IMG/VR virus record: IMGVR_UViG_3300025674_000016 | Location: 1 to 64,000 of that record | Direction: 5' to 3' (one strand) | DNA: 64,000 bases | Origin: a virus | Part shown: in pieces, positions 4,930 through 33,206 of the stretch | Numbering within the stretch: the stretch's first letter is position 1 | Layout: every line of letters begins with the position of its first letter | Notes under the pieces: model-generated | Told to the model about the DNA's origin: nothing | What the model saw: the letters and a program-made list of their open reading frames with translations, nothing else | Database searches by the model: none | Position numbers and translations under genes: made by a program

Positions 4930-5128
4930 TTATCTTTCTTGGGCCAGTGGCAAGACAAGCCAAGCTCAGGAATCAAATAAAGGATCTATTTATAAAGACG
5001 AACAATCTATAGATGTTAAGCAAATAGAAAAGCTTGACGAAGAACTACTTGATCTCAAACAACAAATAACAGAGATCAAAAGGAAGCAGCAAAATGATAA
5101 GGATTATAATCAGAGGAAAAGACGGTAA
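4865..5128 (+). CDS. Membrane-anchored coiled-coil protein, overlapping partner
   Basis: An 87-residue protein with start at 4865, or at 4871 (MKLSKTLRIF). A hydrophobic stretch, IFSGIAFVLLISYLSWASG, is followed by a charged helical tail (DVKQIEKLDEELLDLKQQIT) and a basic end. It overlaps the previous gene by 65 bases in another frame and overlaps the next by 35. The topology, one inner-membrane helix plus periplasmic or cytoplasmic coiled coil, is that of an Rz-like inner spanin. No sequence family is recognised. Confidence 0.55.
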   Translation: MPMKLSKTLRIFSGIAFVLLISYLSWASGKTSQAQESNKGSIYKDEQSIDVKQIEKLDEELLDLKQQITEIKRKQQNDKDYNQRKRR

Positions 5129-5693
5129 AGCCAAGCTTTGCCCCGAAGCAACTCAAGATCTCGAATTAAATACAAAAAATAGGGACGCCTCTATAAAAGC
5201 AGATCATATACAATATGGCCCTCTTAATGTTGATGAGCCGGGTAGCTACTGGAAGGATATTGCAGACCACTGGGATACTGCCGAGGAGGCTGCAAAAAAA
5301 TCTCTTTGTGGTAACTGTGTTGCATTTGATATCTCTCCAAGAATGAAAGATTGTATGCCAGGTGAAACGTCTGATGACGACGGTGAGCTAGGCTATTGCT
5401 GGATGCATCATTTTAAATGTCACTCTGCAAGATCTTGCCGAACATGGGCAAAAGGTGGCCCAATCAAAAACGACGAAAAGTCAAAAGAATGGCAAGACAA
5501 AAACAAAGAACAATTAGACGAAAAGAAAAAGAAACGTAAAAAGAAGAAAAAGAAACGTAAAAAGAAGAAAAAGAAAGCAGGGGATAGATGTGTGAGAATT
5601 GCAAAGCGCAAGTATGACGTTTGGCCCTCTGCCTACGCCTCTGGCGCTGTAGTTAAGTGCAGGCAAGGTAAAATATGGAAGGGTGAAAAATGA
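5094..5693 (+). CDS. Cys-rich protein with Lys/Arg linker and KYDVWPSAYASGA module
   Basis: A 199-residue protein. The middle (about residues 71-124) is rich in Cys and His (SLCGNCVAF, MKDCMPG, GYCWMHHFKCHSARSCRTW), a likely metal or cluster site. A run of about 20 Lys/Arg residues follows (near 143-162). The C-terminus, AGDRCVRIAKRKYDVWPSAY then ASGAVVKCRQG, is a module I recognise from marine phage proteins of unknown function. The same kind of basic linker occurs in the next three genes. The strong positive charge suggests contact with packaged DNA. No N-terminal targeting peptide is seen, so packaging here is inference. Confidence 0.7.
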   Translation: MIRIIIRGKDGKAKLCPEATQDLELNTKNRDASIKADHIQYGPLNVDEPGSYWKDIADHWDTAEEAAKKSLCGNCVAFDISPRMKDCMPGETSDDDGELGYCWMHHFKCHSARSCRTWAKGGPIKNDEKSKEWQDKNKEQLDEKKKKRKKKKKKRKKKKKKAGDRCVRIAKRKYDVWPSAYASGAVVKCRQGKIWKGEK

Positions 5694-6229
5694 TAAGAAT
5701 TAGAATTGTTTCATCACTAAAAAGCAAAATAAGAAAAGCTCTTCACGATGAAGGTGGCGCTGCCGGTATGGATGCCTTGATAAAACATACCGGCTCTGAC
5801 AAGCAAACTATAGATGCCGCTGTTCAGGAGATGCCAGATGTTGCGATACACAAGCACGGGGATTATATCATTGACGACGATGCTTGGGTGGATGTTGATG
5901 GCACTCAAAGAATAGATGAAAAAAAGAAGCGTAAAAAAAAACGCAAAAAAAAGAAACGTAAAAAGAAAGCCGGTACTGAATCCTCAAAGGAAAGCTCTTT
6001 AAGAGACTGGTTTGGCAGAAGAGGCGGTAAAGGCAAAGCCAAGGGCTGGGTTGATTGCAATACATGCCGCAAAGATAAGAAGACAGGTCGCAAAAAATGC
6101 AAGCCTTGCGGTCGCCAAAAAGGCGAAAAAAGATCAAAATATCCAGCTTGCCGACCAACGCCCGGAGCCTGCGAAGAAAGAGGTCGTGGTAAGAGTTGGG
6201 GCAAAAAATCCAAAAAGGGGAAAAAATAA
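5690..6229 (+). CDS. Basic protein with Lys/Arg linker and CRPTP Cys-rich tail
   Basis: A 179-residue protein. The N-terminal 65 residues look like a small helix-turn-helix-like fold (HDEGGAAGMDALIKHTGSDK, IDAAVQEMPDVAIHKHGDYI). A Lys/Arg block of about 20 residues comes next, then a Cys-rich basic tail: WVDCNTCRKDKKTGRKKCKP, CGRQKGEKRSKYPACRPTPG and ACEERGRGKSWGKKS. The tail is a conserved module in marine phage proteins, with six Cys that could bind metal. The ATG overlaps the previous stop and the gene is coupled to the next by TAATG. Minus-strand frames opposite the Lys block are poly-Phe shadows. Confidence 0.7.
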   Translation: MIRIRIVSSLKSKIRKALHDEGGAAGMDALIKHTGSDKQTIDAAVQEMPDVAIHKHGDYIIDDDAWVDVDGTQRIDEKKKRKKKRKKKKRKKKAGTESSKESSLRDWFGRRGGKGKAKGWVDCNTCRKDKKTGRKKCKPCGRQKGEKRSKYPACRPTPGACEERGRGKSWGKKSKKGKK

Positions 6230-6486
6230 TGAAACTAACAAAAAGTCTATTGGAGTCTCTAATCAGGGAAGCACTAGAAGAGACAGGATGTAGAGGAAGA
6301 GAACTAGAAGAAGGCAACTGTGTAAGCGAAGAAGAACAAACTTTAGAGGAAAAGAAAAAGAAGAAAAAGAAAAAATCCAAAAAAGTTGAAAACCCAAGAA
6401 AGTACAAAAAGAGGAATTACGATAGAGATGGTGACGGTGTTCCAAATGGGGCAGACTCTAAACCAGATGATGGTAGTAAATCATGA
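6229..6486 (+). CDS. Small putative packaged protein with targeting peptide and Ca-binding-like motif
   Basis: An 85-residue protein beginning MKLTKSLLESLIREALEETG, a clear copy of the signature peptide with L-I-R-E|A as a possible processing site. RELEEG follows, a second L-x-E|G site. An eight-Lys run comes next, and the C-terminal part RDGDGVPNGADSKPDDG resembles a DxDxDG calcium-binding loop of thrombospondin type-3 or dockerin style. I chose the start at 6229 over an upstream in-frame ATG because the signature peptide begins there and the TAATG overlap is typical of this operon. Confidence 0.65.
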   Translation: MKLTKSLLESLIREALEETGCRGRELEEGNCVSEEEQTLEEKKKKKKKKSKKVENPRKYKKRNYDRDGDGVPNGADSKPDDGSKS

Positions 6487-7076
6487 AAATGCAAAACTTA
6501 TTTGAAGGCTTCAGAAAATGGTCAAATGAAAAGCCTATTATTTCTGAGGCTCTTCAGTATCACATAGATCACGATGTTGGAATTGATAGAAATGTATTCA
6601 GGCCGGGATCTAAAGAGTTTTTATCTTTATTCAAAGAAGTTAGAGATCTCTATAATAAAGGCCAATACAAACTAAACGAAGGTGAAGAATATTATATTCT
6701 CGAAACAGACATAGGCGAATACGCTTTATATGAAGGCGAGATGGTCCCTCTTGATATGCCGATGCCGATTGAGGAAGCTAAAAAGAGGCGTAAAAAAAAG
6801 AAAAAGAAAAACCCTCCTCTCAACAAACCTTCGCTAAACACAGGCGGCGGCAAAAAGTGGAAAGTCTTTGTTCGAAGTAAATCAGGTGGTGTTAAAAAAG
6901 TTACCTTTGGAGACAAGAAAGGCGGATTGAAAGGCAACTGGAATGATCCAAAAGCTCGCGCATCTTTTGCAAAAAGACACAAGTGTGCAGAGAAAAAAGA
7001 TAAAACCAAAGCAGGCTACTGGTCTTGTAGGGCACACAAATACTTTGGCAAGAATGTCCCAGGCCGTTTCTGGTGA
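6483..7076 (+). CDS. Putative packaged protein with Lys/Arg linker and YWSCRAHKYFG module
   Basis: A 197-residue protein beginning MKMQNLFEGFRKWSNEKPII, a second signature class (LFExxRxW) also seen at 7086. L-F-E|G and I-S-E|A are possible processing sites. A basic run, KKRRKKKKKK, lies near residues 100-109. The C-terminal domain (KWKVFVRSKSGGVKKVTFGD, ARASFAKRHKCAEKKDKTKA, GYWSCRAHKYFGKNVPGRFW) is conserved in marine phage genomes and carries two Cys. Its function is unknown. The ATGA overlap couples it to the preceding gene. Confidence 0.7.
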   Translation: MKMQNLFEGFRKWSNEKPIISEALQYHIDHDVGIDRNVFRPGSKEFLSLFKEVRDLYNKGQYKLNEGEEYYILETDIGEYALYEGEMVPLDMPMPIEEAKKRRKKKKKKNPPLNKPSLNTGGGKKWKVFVRSKSGGVKKVTFGDKKGGLKGNWNDPKARASFAKRHKCAEKKDKTKAGYWSCRAHKYFGKNVPGRFW

Positions 7077-7085
7077 GAATATAGA

Positions 7086-8096
7086 ATGAAGTTAATCTTT
7101 GAAAACTGGCGGAGGCACTTAAAAGAAAATTTTTCTCAAGGGGGTGAATACTTCTTGAGGTTCGGAGACCCACGAGAGGTAAAAAACTCTGTTATACACG
7201 ATCCTAGAATGGAATATGAGCGACTATCTTCTGATGACTGGTCTAGCGGCATGGTGCATCAGAAATATGAAGCTGGTATTTCCGCATACCCAGTCTTGCA
7301 TTATGGTGAAGACAAAGTAGTTTTTGAAGCTCCTGTGGGGCTTGATGTTTTTGCCGGTCAGGCTAAAGGGTTTCTTTTCGATAGATTGCTTAATCAAGAA
7401 ATATATGTTTTCAAAGCAGACAAGCTAAGTAAGGCCGGAACTGACGGTGAGCCATTGATCATCGACAACACAATAGAGGATGTTCAAAGAATAAAACATA
7501 GAAATATCTATTTGGGACAAGAAATCTGGGATGAAAAAGAGAAAAAGGCCACTCTCATACAATACAAAAATATATTTGATTTCATCAGGCCATATGATAT
7601 TAAATTCGAATATGAAAATAGTTATGAAAAGTTTTTTGACTACGATAAACACACAACCATCGATAAACTTCTGCCCCCCGAAGAGGTAAAGAAAAAATAT
7701 CAAGCAGAGTTTGATAGACTAAAACAGATCTTTCCAACAGAGGAACACCGTAAAGTAATAGACGAACAAATAACAGATTACGACGAGGAACTTGAGTATT
7801 ATAAAGAGCGTTATAAAAAAAAACAAGCAGATAGCATGCCCTTCTCTCAAGAACAAATAGATGAGTCCACATTTATCAGAGAGTTTAGTCAGGACATTGA
7901 CAGTGAAGAACTTATCTGGCACATGGATCGTGAAGATAGAACCGTTACCATCCTAGAGTCAAGTGGCTGGGAGTTTCAAATGGACAATGAACTTCCAAAG
8001 ATATTAAAAGAAGGCGATGTGCTTTTTATTCCCAAATACACTTATCACAGGGTAATTAAAGGTAGTGGAAAACTTATCGTGGAGATCAAAGAGTGA
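7086..8096 (+). CDS. Putative packaged protein, C-terminal cupin-like domain
   Basis: A 336-residue protein beginning MKLIFENWRRHLKEN, the LFExxR signature class, with L-K-E|N as a possible processing site. Residues about 20-150 form an alpha/beta-looking domain (YEAGISAYPVLHYGEDKVVF, GFLFDRLLNQEIYVFKAD) that I cannot assign. The middle is charged and helical. The last 60 residues (ILKEGDVLFIPKYTYHRVIK) look like a cupin strand pair with a single His, so metal binding is uncertain. It is coupled to the next gene by an overlapping GTG start. Confidence 0.6.
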   Translation: MKLIFENWRRHLKENFSQGGEYFLRFGDPREVKNSVIHDPRMEYERLSSDDWSSGMVHQKYEAGISAYPVLHYGEDKVVFEAPVGLDVFAGQAKGFLFDRLLNQEIYVFKADKLSKAGTDGEPLIIDNTIEDVQRIKHRNIYLGQEIWDEKEKKATLIQYKNIFDFIRPYDIKFEYENSYEKFFDYDKHTTIDKLLPPEEVKKKYQAEFDRLKQIFPTEEHRKVIDEQITDYDEELEYYKERYKKKQADSMPFSQEQIDESTFIREFSQDIDSEELIWHMDREDRTVTILESSGWEFQMDNELPKILKEGDVLFIPKYTYHRVIKGSGKLIVEIKE

Positions 8097-9463
8097 TAAA
8101 GGTATCAGTTAAGAAAAAAATATTAAAAGAATCCCTCTCATTAAATGAGGGTTCCCTCTCAAGCAATCTTGGGTTTCCCAAATCCTTAGAGGAAGCTTTT
8201 GAAGATATTTTTGGCAATCGTGTCACAACATATGGCAAGTGGTTTAAAGAGTATCAGGGAAAGTCTAGATATGGCGGCCCTTGGTATTCTGGCATAAGCC
8301 ACTACCAATCACCATCTGACTTGAGTCTGCTTGATTGTGTAAAAATGTTGGAGGCCATTCGAGTAAATGATGAAGAAAGATTTAATCAACTTATAGAAGT
8401 AGACGAATGGAGCGATAGGGGTGACTCTAAATGGGCAAAGATAGGATTAAAAGAAAAAGGCATGCAGAATGCCAAGCCATACTTGGAAAAACAACTACGC
8501 GACGGCCTCGTTGATGATGCCACATTTTTTACAAGAGATATTGTCGAAGATCGTGAAAAAATAAAAAAACAAGAATTTAAGCAATATTCAAAAATGTCTT
8601 TTAAAGATGCGTCCGCCAAGTATTCACGAATCAAAGCTTTTTCCGAGTCAAAAGAAGTAATGACATTTGATGATGGCCATAGGTGGCTTGACGTTGGTCC
8701 TGAGTGTCAGTTTGTTGGAAGGGAAATGAAAAACTGTGGATCGACAGGCGTTATGTCTTTAGACTCTGACAAAACAATGCTGATCTTGGTTGACTCTAAA
8801 AACAAGCCAAGAATTGTCGCTACACTATCTCCAAATGAAAAAAGATTATCCGGCGTTGAGGGCTCTGCCGGAAGTCTCCCGAAAGAAGAATACTACGACC
8901 ATATCGTTAAGCTTGCAGATTTTCTAGATGTAAAATTTGATGTTACAAGATCTAATTCGTTTTTATTAAATTTGAAATATTTGTTCAGAGGGGTCAAGAT
9001 AAAAATCAAACGACTAAAAACAGATAACGAGTATGAGAGGCTTTATGAGATTATCTTACCAGATAAAAGAAAATTGTACTCTGATACATCCTATTTTTTT
9101 CTAGAAGATGAAGCAAGAAAAGCGGGCGAGATCTTAAATCAAAAACATTTCTCAAAGCCTGTTAATTTTTCAACACGGCTTAGGAACAATATAAAAAAAA
9201 TATTTCACGGCAGAAACCGGCAACTTGTTGGTGATAAGGTCGAATATTACACGATATACACTATAAGTCAATTCGCAGATGAATTAAGATCAACCTCTAA
9301 GCAACCAATCAAAGAAGAGATCCGCAAGACAGGCAGCAAGTGGTGTCTTTATTCCAAGAAGAAAACAAAAAAAGGCAAAAAGAAAAAGCTTGGCTGCTAT
9401 GGGACCAAGGGCGGTGCAAAGAAAAGAGAAAAGCAGGTACAATATTTTAAACACAAGGGGTAA
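8093..9463 (+). CDS. Putative packaged protein with PcfJ-like core and WCLYSKK C-terminal module
   Basis: A 456-residue protein with a GTG start. The N-terminus, MIKVSVKKKILKESLSLNEG, contains L-N-E|G, a possible head-protease site. The segment around residues 190-280 (WLDVGPECQFVGREMKNCGS, then MLILVDSKNKPRIVATLSPN) resembles the PcfJ-like/phage domain in which a GxxMxxC segment precedes a short beta-hairpin. The C-terminus (GSKWCLYSKKKTKKGKKKKL, GAKKREKQVQYFKHKG) is a recurrent end-module in phage proteins, here with the same Lys-rich linker seen in the neighbouring genes. The function is unknown. Confidence 0.65.
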   Translation: MIKVSVKKKILKESLSLNEGSLSSNLGFPKSLEEAFEDIFGNRVTTYGKWFKEYQGKSRYGGPWYSGISHYQSPSDLSLLDCVKMLEAIRVNDEERFNQLIEVDEWSDRGDSKWAKIGLKEKGMQNAKPYLEKQLRDGLVDDATFFTRDIVEDREKIKKQEFKQYSKMSFKDASAKYSRIKAFSESKEVMTFDDGHRWLDVGPECQFVGREMKNCGSTGVMSLDSDKTMLILVDSKNKPRIVATLSPNEKRLSGVEGSAGSLPKEEYYDHIVKLADFLDVKFDVTRSNSFLLNLKYLFRGVKIKIKRLKTDNEYERLYEIILPDKRKLYSDTSYFFLEDEARKAGEILNQKHFSKPVNFSTRLRNNIKKIFHGRNRQLVGDKVEYYTIYTISQFADELRSTSKQPIKEEIRKTGSKWCLYSKKKTKKGKKKKLGCYGTKGGAKKREKQVQYFKHKG

Positions 9464-9705: not shown

Positions 9706-10869
9706 ATGAAACTAACATCAAAATACCTAAAAAAATTAATATTGGAAGCATTTGTTGAAAAGCGTGGTAAATTTCTATGCTGGCATGCTTTTGGATGGGG
9801 TGGCCAATCAGCGGGACAGCGTGGCAAAATGGACCCAGAGCTTATGGATAAGTTTGGTGTCAAACTAAGAGCAAGAATGATAAAAGAGAAGGGCTTTACT
9901 CCTGGTAATGGAGCAATGTACGGAATGGGCGTCTATACCGTTATGGACCCAAGAGATATTAGTTATAATAAATACGGCCCTCTCGCGCTTCAATTTGAGA
10001 TTTCCAAATCAGCAGTCGATCAAAGTTTTCTTGTGATTCCATCTAACCATGACGATAACCAGATAGAAGACTATAAATCAAGTGCCACAACGATTGAAGA
10101 ACAGTTGGAGGCATTCGGCGTCCTCAACGAAGAAACAGCGGGGTTAGTCAAAAAACATTCTGATGAATATTTTGGTAGTGGGCTAGCACTTGAACTATCC
10201 AGACTAAAATATGTAAGAGACGCAATAAAAGGTCTCATATTTCATGGCGCTCAAGATGGCCATGTTCTGGTTTGTTATGACCCTAGCCTATTAAAACTAA
10301 CAGGATACACATCGTCAAGAAACAGCCAACCTAGATATACAACCGAGATTGAATTTAGATTCAATAAAAACCCAAAAGAAATCCACAAGATTGTAAAAAA
10401 CTATTTTGATTTCCCCAATTCAGAAAGTATTGATCAACAAATTCAAACTTGCCAATACGTTGACAGATTTATGTCTGATAATGAGTACTCAAAAGAAGCA
10501 ATGCTTGATCATGCTCGAAATGGATTAAGGGTGGAAGAGCTAAGAACATTAAAGACATACATGCCAGAAGATACTGAGTTGTTGCCCGACGATGCTTGGG
10601 AAAGGCCGAATGAAGATGACTATAACGAACATGACATACTTTATGATAAGTTGCTGGATGGTACTTTAATACGGGACGAAGAGCGTGACATTGACGAATA
10701 TGCCGATCTTACATACCTTGGTTCTATGATTGATACAGAAGCCCAGCAGTATAAAGCAAGAGCATGGGCAGATTTTGTCCAGTTTATTGAAGGCGGAGCT
10801 TTTGAAGAAATGATCTCCGGTCTAGATGGATCTAAAAAACTATTCGGGATTAAAAAGATTAAACAATGA
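9706..10869 (+). CDS. Putative packaged ADP-ribosyltransferase-like protein
   Basis: A 387-residue protein. Residues 1-18 (MKLTSKYLKKLILEAFVE) are the signature peptide with L-I-L-E|A as a candidate processing site. Behind it, FLCWHAF (His27), GMGVYTV (Tyr77), YNKYGPLALQFEI and LIFHGAQDGHVLVCYDPSLL have the order and spacing of the H-Y core plus the closing strand seen in PARP/ART-fold proteins. That assignment is inference from motif layout. No clear third catalytic Glu was placed. T4 Alt is a packaged, injected ADP-ribosyltransferase, which makes the idea plausible here. The C-terminal half is acidic and unassigned. The gene overlaps the next by ATGA. Confidence 0.55.
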   Translation: MKLTSKYLKKLILEAFVEKRGKFLCWHAFGWGGQSAGQRGKMDPELMDKFGVKLRARMIKEKGFTPGNGAMYGMGVYTVMDPRDISYNKYGPLALQFEISKSAVDQSFLVIPSNHDDNQIEDYKSSATTIEEQLEAFGVLNEETAGLVKKHSDEYFGSGLALELSRLKYVRDAIKGLIFHGAQDGHVLVCYDPSLLKLTGYTSSRNSQPRYTTEIEFRFNKNPKEIHKIVKNYFDFPNSESIDQQIQTCQYVDRFMSDNEYSKEAMLDHARNGLRVEELRTLKTYMPEDTELLPDDAWERPNEDDYNEHDILYDKLLDGTLIRDEERDIDEYADLTYLGSMIDTEAQQYKARAWADFVQFIEGGAFEEMISGLDGSKKLFGIKKIKQ

Positions 10870-12191
10870 AACTAACAAGCAATATTTTAAAAAAATTAAT
10901 ACTAGAAGCCCTTAGAGAAAAATACGACTACTCTAGCGAAGAAGATGAAAACATTAAAGCTCTTAAAAAATACAAGGCAGCAGGGTTGTCTGGCGTATCA
11001 CAAAGAATTGGTAAGTGCCTTATCAAAAACAAAGAATACGCAAAGGGTAAAAGCTCCTTTTCTTACGAGGATCGGCTTTGCTTAGAAGAACAAGGTTTCA
11101 CTAAGCTTGGGTTGGGCTCGTTTAGGATTGTGTTTTTAGATAATCAAAATAAAGATAGAGTTATAAAGCTTGCTCTCGACCTACCCGAACAAGAAGAGGA
11201 AGATGAAGAGGAAGAACAAGAGGAAGAAGAACAAGAACAGCAAGAAGAAGAACAAGAACAGCAAGAAGAAGAACAAGAACAGGAAGAAGATGAAGAAGAG
11301 GAAGAAGAAGAGGTAGAAATTTCTAAAGGCATGTCTATGAACTTAAAAGAGGCAAGTTTAAGACTCCAAACCTTATCCCCAATGTTCCCGAAAGTTTACA
11401 GCAAACACCCACATGGCATTTGGATCGAGGTAGAAAGAGTAAATATTTTTAAATTTAAACACAAGGACGATTATTTCGGCAATGAAAGTTGGGCTCCGAT
11501 AAAAAAGTTTTTTCCAAACTTCTCCAAAAATTACCAGAAATTCGATCAGATAAGGACTGAACTCAAAGAATTGGTCCCAGACCTGATAACCGAAGCCGCA
11601 GGGCAAAAATACACTCTTGATGACATACACAAACTGCTTCCGTTTACTAAAGAAAAGCCATTAGACAAAGCATTTATGATTCCAGACATCCATTCAACAT
11701 ATCACTCCATTGCGGATAAAGAAAGCGCGTTTGTGGCAACGTGGAGTTTGCTTATTATTGGCAATAAGGGGCTTAGGGGTAAGTCTTCTTATAAATTTCT
11801 TTATGACAATATAATTTCCCGTGTAAGAACTATGGTCTCCCAAGTGTTTGATCCCAAAGAAGAACAAGAAGAAGAAGAAGAAAGCTTTATTGATGATGAA
11901 TGGTTTGAGGATTTTGTGTTCGAAAACTTAGATAAAAATAATGCAGTTATAGAAGAAATTGTAAATAAAGTAGAAAATTATCTACAACCAAGATTGCAAA
12001 GCGCGTATAAACTAATTACAAGTGACCGTACTTACCAAGAGCTTTTGAGAGTTCATGACGAACTTGATGAAGATTTTCAATTATGGGATTTGAGGCCAGA
12101 CAACTTGGGATCAGCAATAAGAAATGGAAAAGAAACTCTTGTGCTCATTGATCCTGGTTTCGATATGGATATCGACCCCAGAAATAGATAA
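10866..12191 (+). CDS. Putative packaged protein-kinase-like protein with acidic insert
   Basis: A 441-residue protein. The N-terminus, MKLTSNILKKLILEALREK, is nearly the same signature peptide as in the preceding gene. Residues 80-103 (KLGLGSFRIVFLDN, then DRVIKLALD) fit a glycine-rich loop and the ATP-contacting Lys101. LWDLRPDNLG (Asp408, Asn413) fits the catalytic loop, and VLIDPG (Asp429) the metal-binding DFG-like motif. An acidic Glu/Gln stretch of about 45 residues sits between the Lys strand and the next helix, built from 21-bp DNA repeats. I read this as an atypical kinase or phosphotransferase, possibly delivered with the DNA like an early host-takeover enzyme. The substrate is unknown. 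Confidence 0.6.
   Translation: MKLTSNILKKLILEALREKYDYSSEEDENIKALKKYKAAGLSGVSQRIGKCLIKNKEYAKGKSSFSYEDRLCLEEQGFTKLGLGSFRIVFLDNQNKDRVIKLALDLPEQEEEDEEEEQEEEEQEQQEEEQEQQEEEQEQEEDEEEEEEEVEISKGMSMNLKEASLRLQTLSPMFPKVYSKHPHGIWIEVERVNIFKFKHKDDYFGNESWAPIKKFFPNFSKNYQKFDQIRTELKELVPDLITEAAGQKYTLDDIHKLLPFTKEKPLDKAFMIPDIHSTYHSIADKESAFVATWSLLIIGNKGLRGKSSYKFLYDNIISRVRTMVSQVFDPKEEQEEEEESFIDDEWFEDFVFENLDKNNAVIEEIVNKVENYLQPRLQSAYKLITSDRTYQELLRVHDELDEDFQLWDLRPDNLGSAIRNGKETLVLIDPGFDMDIDPRNR
11223..11285 (+). repeat. Three 21-bp tandem repeats encoding EEEQEQQ units
   Basis: Three consecutive 21-base units (GAAGAAGAACAAGAACAGCAA, the last differing by one base) lie within the kinase-like gene. Together with flanking GAA/GAT codons they create the long acidic insert. 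Tandem units of this kind are prone to copy-number change, always in frame. Confidence 0.85.
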
Positions 12192-13786: not shown

Positions 13787-14776
13787 ATGATTGTAGACGT
13801 TATCGTAGACTTACAGTATGGCGATTGTGGCAAGGGAAAAGTAACTCATCACCTCTGCAAGAAGGGTAAATACACCCATGTTGTTAGATATAACGGTGGA
13901 TGTAATGCGGGACACACAATTTATCACGAAGGAAGGAAGTTTGTAACCCATCACATCCCTGCTGGCGTCTTTTTTGGCGTTAAATCGGTCATTGGACCTG
14001 GTTGTGTTGTTAATGTTGATCGTTTTTTCGAAGAAATGGACATGTTAAGGGATGGAGGCATCCCCTATCTTGAAGATTTAGTTAAAATTGCTAAGAATGC
14101 ACACATTATTACAGACGAACATGTTAACTCAGACTCATCTGACACTAGTATTGGCACCACAAAGCGTGGTAATGGTCCTGCATATGCCGCTAAGTACGCC
14201 AGAACAGGGGTCAGGGCAGAAGATGTAAGAGAATTACAGCCTTATTTGGTTGATTTCTTTGAAGAAATGCATCAAAAGGACACTATTGCCCTGTTTGAAG
14301 GCGCTCAGGGCTTTGGTTTGGACGTTGATTGGGGTGATTACCCTTATGTTACCTCCTCTCACTGCACTGTTGCAGGTGCAATGCTCAATGGCATACCTCC
14401 AAAAGCCATTAGAAACGTTTGGGGAGTGGCAAAGTGCTATGAAACATACGTTGGAGCAAAGGATTTCGGTGGTGATGACCCTATTTTCGACACAATCTGC
14501 GAATTAGGACAAGAATATGGCGCTACAACGGGTAGAAAGCGCCAAGTTAACTGGATGGAGTGGGAATTACTCGAAAAAGCGGTTAAAATCAACGGTGTAA
14601 CCCATTTGGTGGTCAATAAAATGGATATTTTAAGCGAAATACAGCGTTGGAGCCTGTTTTGCAACAAAATTAAGCATAGTTTCCCCTCAGAGCAGTCATT
14701 TAAGACATATTTTGAAGAAAAGTTAGGAGAAACAGGCATTTCCATCTATTTTTCTGGTGATAAGGGTCGTATTTAG
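13787..14776 (+). CDS. purA: Adenylosuccinate synthetase (short phage/archaeal-type)
   Basis: A 329-residue enzyme. The family joins IMP and aspartate using GTP to make adenylosuccinate, the first step from IMP to AMP. The GTP loop QYGDCGKGK holds the catalytic Asp13. NAGHT, GTTKRGNGPAYA, FEGAQG, DYPYVTSSH and GATTGRKRQ are all present. It is about 100 residues shorter than bacterial PurA (around 430), like archaeal and viral forms. Phage PurZ, which makes 2-aminoadenine precursors, replaces this Asp with Ser or Gly. Its retention favours PurA activity on IMP or the PurZ0-like intermediate clade. GGAAGGAAAAA precedes the ATG. It probably raises adenine nucleotide supply during infection. Confidence 0.88.
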   Translation: MIVDVIVDLQYGDCGKGKVTHHLCKKGKYTHVVRYNGGCNAGHTIYHEGRKFVTHHIPAGVFFGVKSVIGPGCVVNVDRFFEEMDMLRDGGIPYLEDLVKIAKNAHIITDEHVNSDSSDTSIGTTKRGNGPAYAAKYARTGVRAEDVRELQPYLVDFFEEMHQKDTIALFEGAQGFGLDVDWGDYPYVTSSHCTVAGAMLNGIPPKAIRNVWGVAKCYETYVGAKDFGGDDPIFDTICELGQEYGATTGRKRQVNWMEWELLEKAVKINGVTHLVVNKMDILSEIQRWSLFCNKIKHSFPSEQSFKTYFEEKLGETGISIYFSGDKGRI

Positions 14777-18797: not shown

Positions 18798-19101
18798 GGG
18801 GGTGACTTGGTATCGACTGGGTACGGAATTAGTTCTTGCAAGGAAGTTTGAGCAAACTTTAAAAAGTTCAACCATTTTAATTGACGAAAGCCAATTCGAA
18901 TACGCAATGGCCGCTTGAGGTCTTGCTGGGGTGGCAACAGCCCTATTATCCAAAGTTGCGAAAATAAAGGTTCGTTTACTTTCCTTTTCCAAAAGTAAAC
19001 AATCGTTTACTTTGCTTGTTGGAGCACTAAACCAACTAACCTTGTGAATGAAAGAACAAAGTGAAGTATTTAGGACGCGGGTTCGAATCCCGCCTCCTCC
19101 A
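18798..19101 (+). ncRNA. ssrA: tmRNA (ssrA), one-piece
   Basis: tmRNA rescues stalled ribosomes and tags the nascent peptide for proteolysis. The 5' end GGGGGTGACTTGGTATCGAC matches the conserved tRNA-like start (D-loop portion). The 3' end GGACGCGGGTTCGAATCCCG then CCTCCTCCA gives a perfect T-arm and an acceptor strand pairing with GGGGGTG, with one U-U mismatch. CCA is not encoded. The tag frame ends ...DESQFEYAMAA followed by TGA at 18916-18918. The resume codon cannot be fixed by eye. AAGTTTgagcAAACTT is a visible helix. The length of 304 bases fits the one-piece form. Its last base abuts the stop of the convergent protease gene. Confidence 0.93.
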
Positions 19102-23495: not shown

Positions 23496-24773
23496 ATGAG
23501 CGAAACCAATTCAAAAAAAATTAAAATACTCACCCTTTCTGATCACCCACTCAGCCCTTCTGGAGTTGGCACACAGACAAAATATATGATCGAAGGTCTT
23601 TTAAAGACTGGTGATTATGAAGTTGTGTCTCTAGGTGGCGCTGTAAAGCATCAAAACTACCAGCCAATGAAAACTGAAGAGTGGGGAGATGCCTGGACCA
23701 TTTATCCTGTTGATGGATATGGAACCCAAGATGTTATCCGTTCTGTGATAAGAAGCGAGAAGCCAGATATACTGTGGATGATGACTGATCCAAGATTTTG
23801 GCAGTGGCTGTGGCAAATGGAGGATGAAATCCGACCACTAGTGCCAATTGTCTATTATCATGTTTGGGATAATTATCCGCCACCCAAATACAACAAACCA
23901 GCATATGATTGTAATGATACAATTGTAACAATTTCTAGATTAACAAATGAAATTGTAAATGCAGTCACAGATGTTCCCGATGTAGTTCACCATCCTCACG
24001 CAGTGAATACGGATATATTTAAAAAGTTGAACCCTGAAGATGTAAAAACTTTTAGAGAGAACAGTTTTGAGGGTGGAGAGAAAAATCCAAACAGAATGGT
24101 TTTCTTTTGGAACAACAGGAATGCAAGAAGAAAACAAAGTGGCACTTTAATTTACTGGTTTAAGGAGTTTTTAGATAAGGTTGGTTATGATAATGCTTGT
24201 CTGATAATGCACACCGACCCCAAAGATCAACATGGTCAAGACTTGGAACATATCATAACTGAATTGGGCCTCCACAACGGACAAGTTATGATATCTAGAA
24301 ATAAGATTCCACCAGAAGGTTTAGCCATGCTCTATAACATGGCTGATTGCACAATTAACATTTCAGACGCAGAAGGATTCGGACTAGCCACTCTTGAATC
24401 TTTAGCCTGTGAGACCCCTATTATCGTAAATATGACTGGCGGCTTGCAAGAACAAGTGACCAATGGTGAGGACTGGTTTGGAATCGGAATCGAGCCTTGC
24501 TCTAAGGCAATTATCGGGTCTCAGGAAATTCCATACATCTATGAAGACCGCTTAAATAAAGAGCAGTTCTTAGAGTCTATTGAGAAATTCTATAATCTTA
24601 CAAAAGAGCAAAGAGAGGAGCTAGGTCAAAAAGGTAGAGAGCATGTTCTAAAGAACTATGATTTTGTCAACTACCAAGAAGGTTGGGACAAGATTATGAA
24701 GGACGTTCACCAGAAACACGGTTCTTGGGATAGTAGAAAGGGCTACGATACCTGGAGGCACGAGGAACTATGA
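23496..24773 (+). CDS. Glycosyltransferase, GT4-like (GT-B fold)
   Basis: A 425-residue protein. LTLSDHPLSPSGVGTQTKYM is the N-terminal acceptor-side loop. The C-terminal domain contains MVFFWNNRNARRK, ADCTINISDAEGFGLATLES and ACETPIIVNMTGG, the usual E-x7-E sugar-nucleotide region of GT4 retaining enzymes. It is the first gene of the glycan operon, coupled by ATGA to a second GT4-like gene. The sugar and acceptor are unknown. Confidence 0.85.
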   Translation: MSETNSKKIKILTLSDHPLSPSGVGTQTKYMIEGLLKTGDYEVVSLGGAVKHQNYQPMKTEEWGDAWTIYPVDGYGTQDVIRSVIRSEKPDILWMMTDPRFWQWLWQMEDEIRPLVPIVYYHVWDNYPPPKYNKPAYDCNDTIVTISRLTNEIVNAVTDVPDVVHHPHAVNTDIFKKLNPEDVKTFRENSFEGGEKNPNRMVFFWNNRNARRKQSGTLIYWFKEFLDKVGYDNACLIMHTDPKDQHGQDLEHIITELGLHNGQVMISRNKIPPEGLAMLYNMADCTINISDAEGFGLATLESLACETPIIVNMTGGLQEQVTNGEDWFGIGIEPCSKAIIGSQEIPYIYEDRLNKEQFLESIEKFYNLTKEQREELGQKGREHVLKNYDFVNYQEGWDKIMKDVHQKHGSWDSRKGYDTWRHEEL

Positions 24774-26035
24774 AGCAAAAAATATTAGTTAGGGGACCAG
24801 CCCTAAGTCAAAGTGGGTACGGCGAGCATGCAAGATTTGTCTTGAGGGCTCTAAAAACAAGAGAAGATCTATTTGATATTTTTCTACAAAATATCAATTG
24901 GGGTAGAACAAGTTGGCTCTGGGAGGACACTGAGGAAAGAAGGTGGATCGATAACCTGCTTAACAAGACTATACATTTTAGACAAAGCGGTGGGCAGTTT
25001 GATGTTTCCTTGCAAGTTACCATTCCAAATGAATGGGAGCGCCTAGCGCCCATTAATATTGGCTGTACCGCAGGAATTGAGACAACAAAGATTGCCCCAC
25101 AATGGGTAGAGAAAAGCTATCTCATGGACAAGATTATAGTTGTCTCAGAACACGCAAAATATGGCTTTGTAGAAACTGTGTACAATGCAACAAATTCTCA
25201 AACCGGACAATCTCAATCTGTTTCTGCAAAAGGTCCAATCGAGATTGTAAATTACCCACATAGGCCCGTTGAAGCCTCAGAGATCAATTTAGACTTGAGA
25301 CATGATTTTAACTTTCTTGCCATCTCTCAATGGAGTCCAAGAAAGAATTTAGAAAATACAATTAAGTGGTTTGTTGAAGAGTTTATTGATCAAGAAGTTG
25401 GCTTGGTAGTTAAAACCTCGGTTGCTAACAATTCAAATAATGATTTTCAATTTACAAAAGATAGAATTAAAAGCCTCTTAAGTGACCAAAGATATTCCAA
25501 TAGGAAGTGTTCCGTTCATGTGGTTCATGGTTACATGAAGGACGCAGAGATGTCTGCACTTTATCAACACCCAAAAATCAAAGCTCTTGTGAATATTGCT
25601 CATGGTGAGGGTTATGGTTTGCCCCTATTCGAGGCTGCTGGCTATGGGCTTCCTGTGATAACGATTCCTTGGGGTGGACAAGTTGATTTCCTTTATGTGC
25701 CTGAGCGGCAAGGAAAGAAAAAGAAAATGAAGCGCAAGTTTGCTGAAGTTGAATACACGCTTGGCCATATTCAAAAAGAAGCTCACTGGGAAGGCGTTCT
25801 TCAAAAGGATTCTATGTGGGCTTATGCTGATCAAGGTTCCTATAAGATGACTTTGAGGGACGTTTTCAAAAAGTATGGGGTGTACAAAAAGAGGGCAGAG
25901 GCACTAAAGGAACATATTGAGAATAGTTTTTCCGAAGAGAGAATTTACAAACAATTTAATGACACATTAGCACTTGGACTCTTCAGCACAAATTCGGCAT
26001 CTGAAAGTCCATCAGAAATCAAGATCTTTACTTAA
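24770..26035 (+). CDS. Glycosyltransferase, GT4-like
   Basis: A 421-residue GT-B protein. GPALSQSGYGEHARFVLRAL forms the N-terminal loop, FLAISQWSPRKNLEN opens the C-terminal domain, and VNIAHGEGYGLPLFEAAGYG with LPVITIPWGG is the donor-binding motif. It is related in layout to the preceding gene but distinct. No signal or membrane segment is seen, so it acts in the cytoplasm. Confidence 0.85.
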   Translation: MKQKILVRGPALSQSGYGEHARFVLRALKTREDLFDIFLQNINWGRTSWLWEDTEERRWIDNLLNKTIHFRQSGGQFDVSLQVTIPNEWERLAPINIGCTAGIETTKIAPQWVEKSYLMDKIIVVSEHAKYGFVETVYNATNSQTGQSQSVSAKGPIEIVNYPHRPVEASEINLDLRHDFNFLAISQWSPRKNLENTIKWFVEEFIDQEVGLVVKTSVANNSNNDFQFTKDRIKSLLSDQRYSNRKCSVHVVHGYMKDAEMSALYQHPKIKALVNIAHGEGYGLPLFEAAGYGLPVITIPWGGQVDFLYVPERQGKKKKMKRKFAEVEYTLGHIQKEAHWEGVLQKDSMWAYADQGSYKMTLRDVFKKYGVYKKRAEALKEHIENSFSEERIYKQFNDTLALGLFSTNSASESPSEIKIFT

Positions 26036-26036
26036 T

Positions 26037-27668
26037 ATGAAAATTATAATTATTTCGGATTTTTTTTGTGATGAGGTTCTTGGCGGTGGAGAGATAAATG
26101 ATCAAGTTCTATACGATTGTTTGCTAGAATCTGGCCATGAAGTTTTAAAAATAAAATCACAAGAAGTAGATTTAAAATTTATAAATAAAAATTCTAATGC
26201 AAAGTTTATAGTATCTAATTTTGCATTGTTGAGAGATGATGTCAAAGTTACCTTAGAGTTTTGTGAGTATATAATCTATGAACATGATCACAAATATTTG
26301 ACAACAAGAAACCCAGCAATGTTTAAGGGGTATAGGGCTCCTGACACATTTTTGACAAACGTGTCATTTTATAGAAATGCCAAAGCAGTATTTTGTCAGA
26401 GTAATCTACACTCAGAAATACTTTTAAAAAACATTCCACTAGAAAATATTAGAAATGTTGGTGGAAATTTATGGTCCAATCAACAACTAGATTATATCGC
26501 TAGTTTGACTTCAATCAAAAAAAGAGATAGATTTTCTATTATGGATTCTTCGATTGAGCATAAAAATACAAAAGGAGCTATCTCTTACTGCGAGAAGATT
26601 GGAAAGGAATACGAGTTAATAAAAGGTTCTTATTTTGATTTCTTAAAGGCGATATCTTTAAATGATAAATTGGCGTTTTTTCCAAAAACACCAGAAACTT
26701 TATCTAGATTGGTTGTTGAAGCAAGAATGTTAGAAATAGAGGTTCATACAAACTCTCTAGTTGGTGCCGTATCTGAAGGATGGTTTCACCTTAAGGGACC
26801 GGCATTGATAGACTTTTTAAGGAAAAAGAGACAAGACGTAGTAGACTCAATTAAGGAAACATTTACAGTTGATAAGATATATTATAATATTTTACCAAAT
26901 TTAAAACCAAAAGTTTCTTTGATAACATCCTTATATGACGGTGATTTGTTTATTAGCGATTTTTTGAAAGATATAACAGATCAAACTATATTTGAGGATT
27001 GTGAATTAATAATAGTAGATGCAAATTCCCCTGGAAACGAAAGAGCAGAGATAGAGAAATATCAGAATAGATTTCCTAATATCAAATATCATCGAACTAA
27101 AGATAGAATTAGTATATACTCTGCTTGGAATGTTGGTATAAGCCTTTCTGATGGAAAATATTTATCAAATACAAACCTTGACGATAGGAGATCTAAACAG
27201 CAACTTGAAATACTAGTTGACTTGCTAGAGGAAAATTCCGATCTTGATTTATCATATTCTGAGTGTCTTATGACAAGAAAGCCAAATGAAACTTTTGCTT
27301 ATAATTCATCACTAGGCGAGGTATATCCGGTTTCTTCTTTTTCTAGACAAGCTATGATAAAATGTTTACCTGGGTGCATGCCGGTGTGGAGAAGGGAAGT
27401 CCATGATGCAGTTGGTGTTTTTGATGAAGACTATAAGTATGCAGGGGATTGGGAGATGTGGCTTAGGATGGTCAGGAGGGGGTCAAAATTCATCAAGAAA
27501 GATTGCCCTCTGGGGCTCTATTATATGAACCCAGAAGGACTATCAACTTCTCATAAAAATGAGGTAGAAAGATATAGAGAAGAACAAAAGATTTTCTGGG
27601 AATATACTGATGTCTTCGGAGAAAAAATGACTAGTTTATATGCACAACATTTTGGGAGAAAAGTATGA
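26037..27668 (+). CDS. Two-domain glycosyltransferase (GT-B-like plus GT2)
   Basis: A 543-residue protein. The start at 26037 (MKIIIISDFFCDEVLGGGEI) directly follows the previous stop. A longer frame starts inside it. Residues 1-270 look like a GT-B half (GGGEINDQVLYDCL, FSIMDSSIEHKNTKGAISYC, FFPKTPETLSRLVVEARMLE). Residues from about 290 are a GT2 domain (VSLITSLYDGDLFISDFLKD, CELIIVDANSPGNE, AWNVGISLSDGKYLSNTNLD) with the DD motif. The fusion suggests two successive transfers by one protein. Confidence 0.8.
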   Translation: MKIIIISDFFCDEVLGGGEINDQVLYDCLLESGHEVLKIKSQEVDLKFINKNSNAKFIVSNFALLRDDVKVTLEFCEYIIYEHDHKYLTTRNPAMFKGYRAPDTFLTNVSFYRNAKAVFCQSNLHSEILLKNIPLENIRNVGGNLWSNQQLDYIASLTSIKKRDRFSIMDSSIEHKNTKGAISYCEKIGKEYELIKGSYFDFLKAISLNDKLAFFPKTPETLSRLVVEARMLEIEVHTNSLVGAVSEGWFHLKGPALIDFLRKKRQDVVDSIKETFTVDKIYYNILPNLKPKVSLITSLYDGDLFISDFLKDITDQTIFEDCELIIVDANSPGNERAEIEKYQNRFPNIKYHRTKDRISIYSAWNVGISLSDGKYLSNTNLDDRRSKQQLEILVDLLEENSDLDLSYSECLMTRKPNETFAYNSSLGEVYPVSSFSRQAMIKCLPGCMPVWRREVHDAVGVFDEDYKYAGDWEMWLRMVRRGSKFIKKDCPLGLYYMNPEGLSTSHKNEVERYREEQKIFWEYTDVFGEKMTSLYAQHFGRKV

Positions 27669-28366
27669 GACCATTCAAACCTTCTAGTCTTATAGAGCTA
27701 AATAATAAACAATATTATTACCTAAATGATGATAATCCATCTTTAGGATACACAACATCTGATGTTTCTTTCGTTGCACAACCGCTCTACAACAAGAGTA
27801 CAAATAAGAAATTTAATGTTGTTGCTGTACCGCTTATGATGACTGACGAGTGGTCAATCATGGAAGAAAACCCAGACATTATTCAAGAATTGAGAAGTGT
27901 TGAAAAAGAATACGATTATATGTTTATTGGTCAATGTCATTATATGGGTAGGCAAGTATTTAGAACTCTAAAATTAGATAATTATTACTTTAGAGAGAAC
28001 TCCAAAGGAATTTTTCACTTAAGAGCAGAAGATAAAAAAGTTGAATTAATAAAGTTTTTAAAAGAGATCGCAAAATCAAAATTTATTTTCTGCCCCCGTG
28101 GTGTAGGCTCCAGCTCATTCAGGCTTTATCAAACTATGATGGTTGGGTCAGTCCCTATTGAGACTGGCATGAATGATTATCCCTTTGATGAAGAAGTAGA
28201 TTGGGATACATTTTGTATTAGGGGCGATTTAAGTAATTTATATTCTTTAATTGAAAAAAGTAAGAATATTAATTTTGAATACTTTAGAAATAATGGTATG
28301 GAATTTTGGGATAAGTATTGTCGTCATGATGAAATGAAGAAGAGGCTAGAGGAAAAATATGGCTAG
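27665..28366 (+). CDS. Exostosin-like glycosyltransferase (GT47 type)
   Basis: A 233-residue protein. FIFCPRGVGSSSFRLYQTMM followed by VGSVPIETG is the hallmark of the exostosin/GT47 C-terminal domain, in which the Arg and Glu contact the nucleotide sugar. It is shorter than usual GT47 enzymes. It overlaps both neighbours by a few bases. Confidence 0.75.
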   Translation: MRPFKPSSLIELNNKQYYYLNDDNPSLGYTTSDVSFVAQPLYNKSTNKKFNVVAVPLMMTDEWSIMEENPDIIQELRSVEKEYDYMFIGQCHYMGRQVFRTLKLDNYYFRENSKGIFHLRAEDKKVELIKFLKEIAKSKFIFCPRGVGSSSFRLYQTMMVGSVPIETGMNDYPFDEEVDWDTFCIRGDLSNLYSLIEKSKNINFEYFRNNGMEFWDKYCRHDEMKKRLEEKYG

Positions 28367-29150
28367 GGCGTGCTTGTTTAATGTATATCTTGGCAAATTA
28401 CCTCATTGGATTGAATTTTTTATAAAGAGTGCAAACCACAATCAAGATTACCATTTCTACATTTTCAATGATAATGTGAATAGCGACTATAACGTGGGAA
28501 ATGTTTTTTTAAAGAAGATTAACAAAGATCAAGTTGAAAAAGCAATAAGCAGGAAGTTTAATAAGCAGTATAGTTTGCCAAACACAAGAAAACTGTGTGA
28601 CTGGAAAACCGCATACGGGGTGATATTTTCTGAAATCTCTACAAAATATGAGTTTTGGGGACATTGTGATTTGGACATAGTATGGGGTGATATTTCTAAT
28701 TTTATTGGAGATGATGATTACGACAAATATGACATAATTTCAGGAGACCAAAAAAGATTATGTGGTCCTTTCAATTTATATAAGACATCTTGTAATATTG
28801 ATGTGTGTAAGCATCATCCAAACTGGGAGCACATACTATTTCGCCTTCCGCATGTTGCCTATGACGAAATTGGTCTAGATCTGTCGATAAAAGCCAATTA
28901 TGATAGGAGTAAAATACTGTATGGAATGGGAAGAAACAATTTACCCATGCAGAACTATGGCTCACCAAGTGAGCAACCTCCTTTGAGAGTTCCTGCTAGG
29001 TGGAGACAAGGAGAGTTGAGAATTCTGGAAGATGGCAGGGAAACAATGTTTATACACATGGGCTTTAAAAAGTTAATGAAACCAACAAAGTTTAAAGAAA
29101 GCGAGGAGTTTTTTGTATATAAAGAGGGTATAAAAATATGTCTAATGTGA
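28359..29150 (+). CDS. Glycosyltransferase-like protein (DUF6625 type)
   Basis: A 263-residue protein. YEFWGHCDLDIVWGDISNF contains a DxD that would bind metal and nucleotide sugar, as in DUF6625-type GT-A proteins. DWKTAYGVIF and ISGDQKRLCGPFNLYKTS follow as in that group. Its 3' end overlaps the next gene by 13 bases. Confidence 0.7.
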   Translation: MARACLFNVYLGKLPHWIEFFIKSANHNQDYHFYIFNDNVNSDYNVGNVFLKKINKDQVEKAISRKFNKQYSLPNTRKLCDWKTAYGVIFSEISTKYEFWGHCDLDIVWGDISNFIGDDDYDKYDIISGDQKRLCGPFNLYKTSCNIDVCKHHPNWEHILFRLPHVAYDEIGLDLSIKANYDRSKILYGMGRNNLPMQNYGSPSEQPPLRVPARWRQGELRILEDGRETMFIHMGFKKLMKPTKFKESEEFFVYKEGIKICLM

Positions 29151-29725
29151 GAAAAATAACTAGAAGAGGTCCACTTAATAAATCACCTGGTAGTTTTTAT
29201 GGCGGAGTGCCAACTGGCCAGAGGGTCGAGGCGTTTGAAGTGCTAAAGAGAGTCGTCGAGGATTACAAGCCAGAGGCTATTATTGAAATAGGCTTTTGGC
29301 AAGGTGGTATGAGCCTATTTTTATCTGATTTAGATGTTTGTTCTGTATGGTCTTTTGATATTAAAAATTCGAATTATCCTGTTTCAAACAGCAACTTGAA
29401 TATGATAGTAAAAAATTGTCACTCACAAGAAACTAAGATTTATTTAGAACAAATAACAAAAAACAAAAAAACATTGTGGATGATAGACGGGGGCGATAAA
29501 GCAAAAGAATTTAATTTCTTATCGGATATAATCAAGACTGGGGAATTAGCCATGACTCATGACTTCGCACCGGACAAAGAAGGTTTTAATTATTTAGTTG
29601 ATAATAATATTTGGTATTGGTGGGAATCTAGTCTAGATCAGTTAGATCTATCTAGTTTTGAAAATCATGATGATTTTGAATATATTTGGAAAACTTCTGT
29701 TTGGGGGGCGTTTGTAAAACAATGA
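29138..29725 (+). CDS. Class I SAM-methyltransferase-like protein (CmcI-like)
   Basis: A 195-residue protein. AIIEIGFWQGGMSLFLSDLD is the SAM-binding motif I with an acidic residue in motif II (VWSFDIKNSN). LWMIDGGDKAKEF and LAMTHDFAPDKEG resemble cephalosporin-hydroxylase (CmcI)-type methyltransferases often found in surface-sugar clusters. It probably methylates a sugar of the glycan. Confidence 0.65.
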   Translation: MSNVRKITRRGPLNKSPGSFYGGVPTGQRVEAFEVLKRVVEDYKPEAIIEIGFWQGGMSLFLSDLDVCSVWSFDIKNSNYPVSNSNLNMIVKNCHSQETKIYLEQITKNKKTLWMIDGGDKAKEFNFLSDIIKTGELAMTHDFAPDKEGFNYLVDNNIWYWWESSLDQLDLSSFENHDDFEYIWKTSVWGAFVKQ

Positions 29726-30384
29726 TCGATCTTAATATCTTTACAAACTGCACCGAACAGAACTCAGACTCTGCGGCTTTGATAGAAAGAACTTTCAATT
29801 CATGGAAAAGAGTTTTTTCTGCAAATACAATTAGCGCCCTTAAAGTGTTTATAGACCCAAAACCTAAATCTAAAAACTTTCATTCTTACTCAAGCAAGAT
29901 ACAAACTTTCTTTGAAAAAGAAGGCATGCAATGTTCTGTTTTTGAGACAAATGGATTGGCAGATGGGTATTTAAAATCTACTAAGCTTTGTGACTCGGAC
30001 TATATTTTCCAACTAGAACATGATTGGGAATTTCTTCCATCAATAGTACATGATATTCCACTTTTAATTGAGTGCATGAAAAAGCAACAAATGGAGCATC
30101 TTAGGTTTAATAAAAGAGAGAATATAAATTTAAACGAATCGTTAACTGAAATTCAAGTCGGAGATATTGCTTTTTGTAAAACAAACAAGAGGTCTAACAA
30201 TCCTCACATCATTGATAGGAAAAGCTATCTACAAAGGTGGAATAAGCGTATTGATGTTTCCAATAGACCTAAAAGAGCCGATGGTATAGAAAACATGCTT
30301 GTTGGTGTTGAGGGCTATATTTATGGCCCATTTAGATACCCTAAGCAAATTAATCATATCGACGGCAGGGGTCAAAAAATATGA
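29722..30384 (+). CDS. Glycosyltransferase-like protein (GT-A fold)
   Basis: A 220-residue protein starting at the ATG that overlaps the previous stop (MIDLNIFTNCTEQNSDSAAL). SDYIFQLEHDWEFLPSIVHD carries an acidic motif in the position of the GT-A DxD, followed by MEHLRFNKRENI. It resembles short GT2-like proteins of phages. The specificity is unknown. Confidence 0.6.
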   Translation: MIDLNIFTNCTEQNSDSAALIERTFNSWKRVFSANTISALKVFIDPKPKSKNFHSYSSKIQTFFEKEGMQCSVFETNGLADGYLKSTKLCDSDYIFQLEHDWEFLPSIVHDIPLLIECMKKQQMEHLRFNKRENINLNESLTEIQVGDIAFCKTNKRSNNPHIIDRKSYLQRWNKRIDVSNRPKRADGIENMLVGVEGYIYGPFRYPKQINHIDGRGQKI

Positions 30385-31043
30385 ATTTATTATTAGCGTT
30401 CCCTAGGACAGGCTCAACTTGGACTAGATATATAGTTGAATTTTTTAGTGAAGGAGTTTGTGACGGATATTATGATAACAAGTCAGTTCTAAGTACCATA
30501 AAAGATAACAATATTGATACTTTATATGAAATTAAAAATCAAAATGTTTTTATGACTATGATACACCACCACCATGAAATTAGAAACAGCCCAACAAAGT
30601 TAATCGTGACTCAAAGAAACCCAGTAGAATTACTACCTAGCTTTTACTATAGCAGGAATCATAAAAATAAAAAAATACCAATTAAAAATTTTATGAAAAC
30701 TTTAACTTTTTCTAAACTAAAGAACATTTGTCGTTCTTACAAAGAAAATTTAAATTTTTATAAAAGATTTAAAGGTGAAAAAATTATTTTAAATTATGAA
30801 TTTTTGATGACAGAACCAGAGAAAGAGATAATAAAAATTACAAAATTTTTAAATTGCTACAGTGAAGAGAAAATGAAAAGTTTTATGCATCAATATGAAA
30901 AGCATAAAATAGCGTGTTTGAATTATAAATCCCTGCCAAAACACATGGCGGTCAACACCTCTGGGGAATTGAATAAAATTGAAGAGCTTTTACAGAAAAG
31001 CACAATAGATGATATAATAAATTTTTACAAGGACATTAAATGA
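30381..31043 (+). CDS. PAPS-dependent sulfotransferase-like protein
   Basis: A 220-residue protein. The N-terminal FPRTGSTWTRYIVEF is the 5'-phosphosulfate loop, and KLIVTQRNPVELLPSFYYSR is the 3'-phosphate-binding segment of sulfotransferases. GEKIILNYEFLMTEPEKEI continues the family pattern. It would transfer sulfate from PAPS to a sugar hydroxyl, giving an acidic glycan. Sulfotransferases are uncommon in phages. Confidence 0.8.
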   Translation: MNLLLAFPRTGSTWTRYIVEFFSEGVCDGYYDNKSVLSTIKDNNIDTLYEIKNQNVFMTMIHHHHEIRNSPTKLIVTQRNPVELLPSFYYSRNHKNKKIPIKNFMKTLTFSKLKNICRSYKENLNFYKRFKGEKIILNYEFLMTEPEKEIIKITKFLNCYSEEKMKSFMHQYEKHKIACLNYKSLPKHMAVNTSGELNKIEELLQKSTIDDIINFYKDIK

Positions 31044-32271: not shown

Positions 32272-32272
32272 A

Positions 32273-33169: not shown

Positions 33170-33178
33170 ATACTATTG

Positions 33179-33187: not shown

Positions 33188-33206
33188 TGCAGAAAGGAGC
33201 TTTAAT

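Follow-up and report, generated by a model that had tools for sequence, protein, structure and literature searches.

What are long, almost pure runs of lysine and arginine doing in the products of neighbouring virus genes, each time between different protein segments? The question is raised by positions 5094–9463 of a 64,000-base stretch of DNA (hereafter, the window), which makes up positions 1–64,000 of the IMG/VR virus record IMGVR_UViG_3300025674_000016; the complete record is 155,702 bases long and contains T4-type tail and head genes. On the sequence evidence set out below, we consider it likely that four of the open reading frames (ORFs) concerned, which start at 5094, 5690, 6229 and 6483, encode precursors of T4-type internal head proteins that would be cut before their Lys/Arg (K/R) runs, freeing DNA-bound modules with a K/R tail. 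The product of a fifth ORF, 8093, and those of neighbours whose starts resemble the T4 capsid targeting sequence (CTS) are probably internal head precursors as well.

All five ORFs were recovered at the coordinates given in the original prediction, and the runs that it described are real. With a run defined as at least eight K/R within 10 residues, they comprise 18 K/R in 5094 (amino acids 144–161), 16 in 5690 (78–93), ten Lys and one Ser in 6229 (42–52), ten K/R in 6483 (100–109), and nine K/R among 11 residues in 8093 (422–432). The 196 ORFs of the record contain seven such runs, five of which lie inside the interval 5094–9463, compared with a mean of 0.72 and a maximum of three when the residues of all ORFs were shuffled 200 times.

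The residues that precede the runs are QLDE in 5094, RIDE in 5690, TLEE in 6229, and PIEE-A in 6483; that is, [L/I]xE stands directly, or with one Ala between, before four of the five runs, and the 8093 run is the exception. The T4 prohead protease gp21 is described in a passage of PMC9026906 as cutting after the Glu of L/I-X-E. The record itself encodes a gp21-family S77 protease (PF03420) at 89347–89757 (106 bits) and a Gp23 capsid protein at 92232–93734 (234 bits). In the capsid alignment, its LRE|AS lies opposite LTE|AE of T4 gp23 and VSE|AN of Flavobacterium phage Immuto, and the 65-residue propeptide of T4 gp23 given in the same passage (PMC9026906) agrees with a bond at LTE|AE. The original prediction took the run for a linker that connects the end-modules of the functional protein. 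The prohead-protease motif directly before the run argues otherwise, since the predicted mature product would carry the run as an N-terminal tail.

The four predicted precursors share this layout, and the features listed in this paragraph are on the plus strand. In 5094, an acidic pro-part with the Cys/His-rich module A (5094–5522, net charge −5) ends in LDE (5514–5522) and is followed by an 18-residue run (5523–5576) and module B (DRC..PSAYASGA..CR..IWK; 5583–5690), a distant relative of Pfam DUF5872; run plus module B would be freed as a fragment of net +25. The pro-part of 5690 (5690–5920, net −5), with the three-helix module C (EGGAAG..GDYI), ends in IDE (5912–5920), and behind it lie a 16-residue run (5921–5968) and module D (LRDWF..GWVDCN..CGR..YPxCRPTPxxC; 5996–6226), whose four Cys are invariant across 53 aligned sequences; the predicted fragment has a net charge of +38. 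The acidic propeptide of 6229 (6229–6351, net −7) begins with the T4-CTS-like MKLTKSLLESLIREA and ends in LEE (6343–6351), and the K run (6352–6384) and a DxDxDG tail (6385–6483) together form a predicted fragment of net +11; the tail is Ca-loop-like and may bind Ca. In 6483, the acidic pro-part (6483–6776, net −9) ends in IEE (6768–6776), and a 10-residue run (6780–6809) and module E (KxxVxVR..VKKVTFGD..RHKC..YWSCRAHK; 6813–7073), a distant relative of Pfam DUF5754, yield a predicted fragment of net +30. The C-terminal module of 8093, module F (9317–9460), is preceded by an IKE site (9308–9316), and the Lys-rich stretch of this protein (9356–9388) lies within the module, not behind the site.

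The relationship to the two Pfam families is distant. DUF5872 gave a weak profile match in 19 of 50 rows of the module B alignment (best 2.9e-5), and DUF5754 in 4 of 31 rows of the module E alignment (best 5.3e-6). The 5094 protein itself did not match DUF5872 (its Immuto homologue reached 23.0 bits, below the cut-off of 27.5), and the 6483 protein did not match DUF5754 at E 0.01. Proteins with DUF5754 and DUF5872 are present in the gene table of a Chrysochromulina alga virus.

CTS-like starts occur in 15 of the 172 plus-strand ORFs, including 6229, 9706, 10866, and 2165, compared with a shuffle mean of 1.8 and a maximum of 6, for a pattern that was defined post hoc. The start of 9706, MKLTSKYLKKLILEA, may be compared with MKTYQEFIAEA of T4 IPIII and MKTFKEF...TITEA of IPI.

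The site was then examined in relatives. The 6483 scan returned 31 loci, and for module D the best 80 of at least 348 relatives among the 600 matches listed were used. Profiles built by script found 30 copies of module A, 92 of B, 7 of C, 87 of D, 75 of E, and 3 of F in 5033 ORFs. Matches reaching the module start were kept (B 91, D 87, E 70, A 29), and removal of near-duplicates (shared 4-mers >0.6) left B 59, D 72, E 64, and A 18. The 20 residues immediately upstream of the module contain a whole [LI]xE in 161 of the 195 non-redundant copies of B, D, and E (66.5 in shuffles, z 15.4). Counted as strict [LI]xE ending at most 20 residues upstream, the site precedes 53/59 B, 59/71 D, and 57/64 E copies (shuffle means 23.9, 21.6, and 27.5), and at random positions of the same proteins the frequencies are 30%, 29%, and 40%, respectively. 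The looser [LIVMF]xE within 30 residues is found in B 55/59, D 68/72, E 63/64, and A 14/18. Shifting the register ([LI]E, z 0.9; [LI]..E, z 2.5) or substituting residues ([LI].D, z −1.7; [LI].[QN], 0.4; [KR].E, −7.4; [VMF].E, 4.0) gives no enrichment or weak enrichment only. The position P3 is occupied by Leu (122), Ile (43), Val (13), Met (7), and Phe (1).

K/R runs follow [LI]xE in 23 of 31 cases in module ORFs and in 1 of 23 cases in other ORFs, the single case being 6229 of the window (Fisher 1.7e-7; with 6229 counted in the module group, 1.3e-8). The original prediction had suggested comparing linker lengths across relatives and had named absence from most homologues as a refutation, and this is the outcome for long linkers: at least six K/R stand between site and module in just 17/59 B, 13/72 D, and 10/64 E copies. 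With sites taken within 30 residues, the distance from site to module is 0–20 residues for B (median 5), 0–25 for D (6), and 3–18 for E (7). The net charge of this stretch plus the module is positive in every copy (59/59 B, 72/72 D, 64/64 E), with a minimum of +5. Over the 20 residues upstream of the site, the mean charge is −3.7 (B), −1.4 (D), and −4.6 (E), and over the 20 residues downstream it is +8.1, +4.0, and +5.4, while 724 control sites differ little (−1.3 before, −0.4 after). The copies thus have in common the site and a strongly positive charge; the long K/R run varies and is present in about one-fifth of them.

The modules that flank the window runs are genuine and recur in other phages, in varying combinations: E alone (62), B-D (60), B-D-E (9), D-B (4), A-B (2), B-C-D (2), and others. 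Modules B, D, and E, which belong to three genes in the window, are joined in a single ORF at locus L128, behind LEE, LDE, and LEE, respectively. If the modules act as separate cleavage products, it would make no difference whether one gene or several encode them, and the shuffled arrangements in relatives would be explained. The phage-like genes of L128, including a module B with 86% identity to the query, are located close to the end of a 2.85-Mb metagenome-assembled genome (MAG) chromosome filed as a WOR-3 bacterium and may represent a prophage or an assembly error. Module B is found in 177 phage-collection records, chiefly cyanophages, and module E in 21. A cellular origin of module B was considered and rejected, as the 11 loci recovered when 84,980 genomes were scanned for its pattern all belong to MAG records. 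Module E is also present in four small non-T4 phages. It is N-terminal without a pro-part in Kolga, CRP-902, and HTVC106P, and in CRP-6 (locus L140, 2438–3127) a short leader with LEE precedes module E, which forms the N-terminal part of a fusion with an XkdF-type prohead protease (PF14550, 65 bits); the capsid gene lies at a distance of two genes. In phage Melnitz (locus L044, 6315–8267), module E is C-terminal on a protein that starts with MKKFSEIIEA and resembles, by eye, the cyanophage virion cytidylyltransferase.

A homologue of these modules has been detected in virions. Gp160 of the Synechococcus cyanophage S-CREM2 (128342–129235) contains a match to module B (68% over 28 residues) and has a net charge of +30. 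An LSE|A site precedes its D-like module, and an ISE|G site precedes its module B. Table 3 of PMC10665884 lists seven unique peptides and 13.1% coverage for gp160 in CsCl-purified virions and leaves the protein hypothetical. The S-CREM2 virion cytidylyltransferase gp154 starts with MKNFSSFLTE|A, and the virion proteins gp156, gp165, gp174, and gp176 of the same region have no such start. A homologue in S-B68 bears the annotation label structural protein, T4-like GC0119. Together with the protease motif and the S77 and gp23 genes, the S-CREM2 mass spectrometry makes a location in the head on packaged DNA, as the original prediction proposed, now the best reading.

T4 internal proteins (IPs), their targeting sequences, and the long propeptides of giant phages are already known, as described in passages of PMC9026906, PMC5694885, and PMC10052503. 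In T4, several unrelated proteins (IPI, IPII, IPIII, and Alt) carry at the N-terminus a short signal that ends in [L/I]xE, and the phage of the window shares with the IPs a gp21-family protease, basic mature products (here predicted), and a gp23-type head. T4 IPs bind DNA in low salt, according to one such passage (PMC9026906). The proteins described here differ in that their sites are also internal, directly before K/R runs, P1′ is often Lys, and the pro-parts are long and acidic and have modules of their own, with modules recombining as polyprotein-like strings; by the same count, the fragments carry +11 to +38 compared with +2 for mature IPI. The giant phages SPN3US and phiKZ have many inner head proteins with propeptides of more than 100 residues that are cut after a short Glu-ending motif (PMC5694885). 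Their ejection proteins resemble the present ones in the long propeptides and the prohead-protease motif ending in Glu, whereas the passages of PMC5694885 mention no K/R tails and its text does not use the term polyprotein; this comparison is by description and not by sequence. The T4-GC0119 structural protein, Syn9 gp114, and S-CREM2 gp160 combine module B with a D-like module, with [L/I]xE sites in S-CREM2. Their D-like module has fewer Cys, however, no long K/R runs accompany the modules, and Syn9 gp114 has no site before module B. No description of the K/R-tailed arrangement was found among titles and abstract openings of the open-licence literature, which is weak evidence of absence. We would file the proteins under T4-type internal head proteins as a variant, rather than as proven members.

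The DNA of the runs indicates how they may have grown. In the 5094 run, 2.6 copies of a 21-bp unit form a perfect tandem repeat; a run can therefore lengthen through duplication of its unit. The 5690 run has an imperfect 12–13-bp unit. The slippage-generated expansion suggested originally receives only partial support. Simple A-slippage as the sole origin was rejected in view of the units, the longest A-tract of 9 nt, and the Arg codons of the runs, six of seven being CGT/CGC, although the window favours AGA/AGG. Run growth looks like duplication of repeat units rather than simple A-slippage.

The proteins might instead remain uncut, with the run as a permanent linker tying two folded end-modules to packaged DNA. 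The window runs do separate two different segments, and DNA binding is to be expected of basic runs, but the position of [LI]xE directly before four of the five window runs and 23 of the 31 runs in module ORFs, the occurrence of the modules alone, fused, or split, and the many homologues (the majority) that have no long run make such a tether unlikely. The specificity of the motif in register, the matching site in the capsid protein of the record, the presence of S-CREM2 gp160 in virions, and the direct start of module E, without a pro-part, in three of the non-T4 phages all argue against intracellular DNA- or RNA-binding proteins that serve in the nucleoid or in host takeover, outside the head, with [L/I]xE as part of amphipathic helices. 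We judge this improbable, even though no known fold was found for the modules and proteins with DUF5754 and DUF5872 are also listed for the Chrysochromulina virus, which is not known to share T4 head assembly. Finally, the perfect 21-bp repeat in 5094 and the variation in run length from 0 to approximately 20 would be expected if the runs were functionless low-complexity sequence, drifting by repeat duplication and slippage, and the flanking modules alone mattered. Drift alone would hardly account for runs that consist of K/R only, are in frame, and nearly always follow a site, or for a positive net charge after the site in 195 of 195 copies, and we give this explanation little credence.

Several observations weigh against internal head precursors as the interpretation. 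Eight of the 31 runs in module ORFs are not scored as site-linked, and the 8093 run is not preceded by a site. Neither 5094 (MIRIIIRG) nor 5690 (MIRIRIVSS) has a clear T4-like targeting start. P1′ is usually Ala or Gly in T4, and Lys, Asp, and Glu are frequent here (K 63, A 62, D 22, E 15, and others). The S77 protease was found in 15 and the Gp23 capsid protein in 13 of the 24 module-bearing viral records searched; these records may be fragments, and 10 of the 12 that are at least 100 kb long hold the protease. The module copies share ancestry, and figures such as the 161 of 195 overstate their independence. In a fold search, neither the 5094 model (mean pLDDT 61.5; approximately 90 in module B) nor the 5690 model (mean pLDDT 65.9) had a PDB match at E < 0.001. 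The virion-detected gp160 is a distant homologue only, and the authors of the S-CREM2 study (PMC10665884) warn that highly expressed or non-structural proteins may co-purify. For the phage of the window itself, location and cleavage are inferred from its sequence.

Genes around the four precursors also bear on head cargo. The product of 7086–8096 (+) begins with the CTS-like MKLIFENWRRHLKE, and its C-terminal domain is weakly cupin-like; in 17 of 70 ORFs of relatives, module E is followed by a homologue of this domain. The products of 9706–10869 (+) and 10866–12191 (+), the latter with the CTS-like start MKLTSNILKKLILEA, a poly-Glu tract, and kinase-like motifs seen by eye only, are likely further head cargo. 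Sequence searches for the enzyme identity of 9706 and 10866 gave chance-level matches only, so that readings as an ADP-ribosyltransferase or a kinase are impressions from motifs; 9706 had no relatives among viral contigs. The poly-Glu tract (11187–11311) consists of GAA/GAG-rich repeats, with the best score for a 21-bp unit, and forms an acidic counterpart of the K/R runs. A nucleotide search of 4–24 kb of the window against named phages gave no match. Elsewhere in the window, the sole tRNA or transfer-messenger RNA (tmRNA) gene found is a tmRNA gene at 18798–19101 with the tag DESQFEYAMAA. By eye, the ORF at 13787–14776 is adenylosuccinate-synthetase-like and might be of the PurZ type of modified-base phages, and the ORFs of the block 23496–34599 resemble glycosyltransferases, a sulfotransferase, methyltransferases, and nucleotide-sugar epimerases. 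At the record edge (1–470), ORFs overlap on both strands and the G+C content is 0.47 in the first 2 kb compared with approximately 0.38; a foreign or chimeric end is possible.

We propose a maturation pathway for the precursors, each of which combines an acidic N-terminal pro-part with a strongly basic C-terminal module. A T4-like signal would bring some of them into the prohead and the acidic part perhaps others, and the S77 (gp21-type) protease would cut there behind [L/I]-x-E, where the motif borders the K/R run. The freed small module (net +11 to +38) would keep the run as its N-terminal tail, and the acidic pieces would leave or remain as separate modules. Tail and module would be held to the packaged genome by charge, probably entering the host with the DNA; the simplest guess for the 18-residue runs of some lineages is stronger DNA contact. 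In this pathway, we infer the actual cleavage, DNA binding, ejection, and the role of each module. More speculatively, and with considerable doubt, the head protease of aquatic T4-type phages may work as a polyprotein processor, making from interchangeable precursors a set of histone-like peptides whose K/R tails arise at the cut. Until sealing of the prohead, acidic pro-parts would mask the charge, the peptides would then condense and accompany the genome, and DUF5754 and DUF5872 might have been reused by giant algal viruses as shared virion DNA-compaction modules.

The proposed pathway would provide a location and a processing logic for abundant families without known function, such as module D, which is present in at least 348 encoding stretches of the viral collection. 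It also suggests a simple sequence rule, [L/I]xE followed by a basic module where the phage has an S77 protease, that would yield a list of proteins possibly packed into the head and delivered to the host. The published but unexplained mass-spectrometry match of S-CREM2 gp160 fits this rule.

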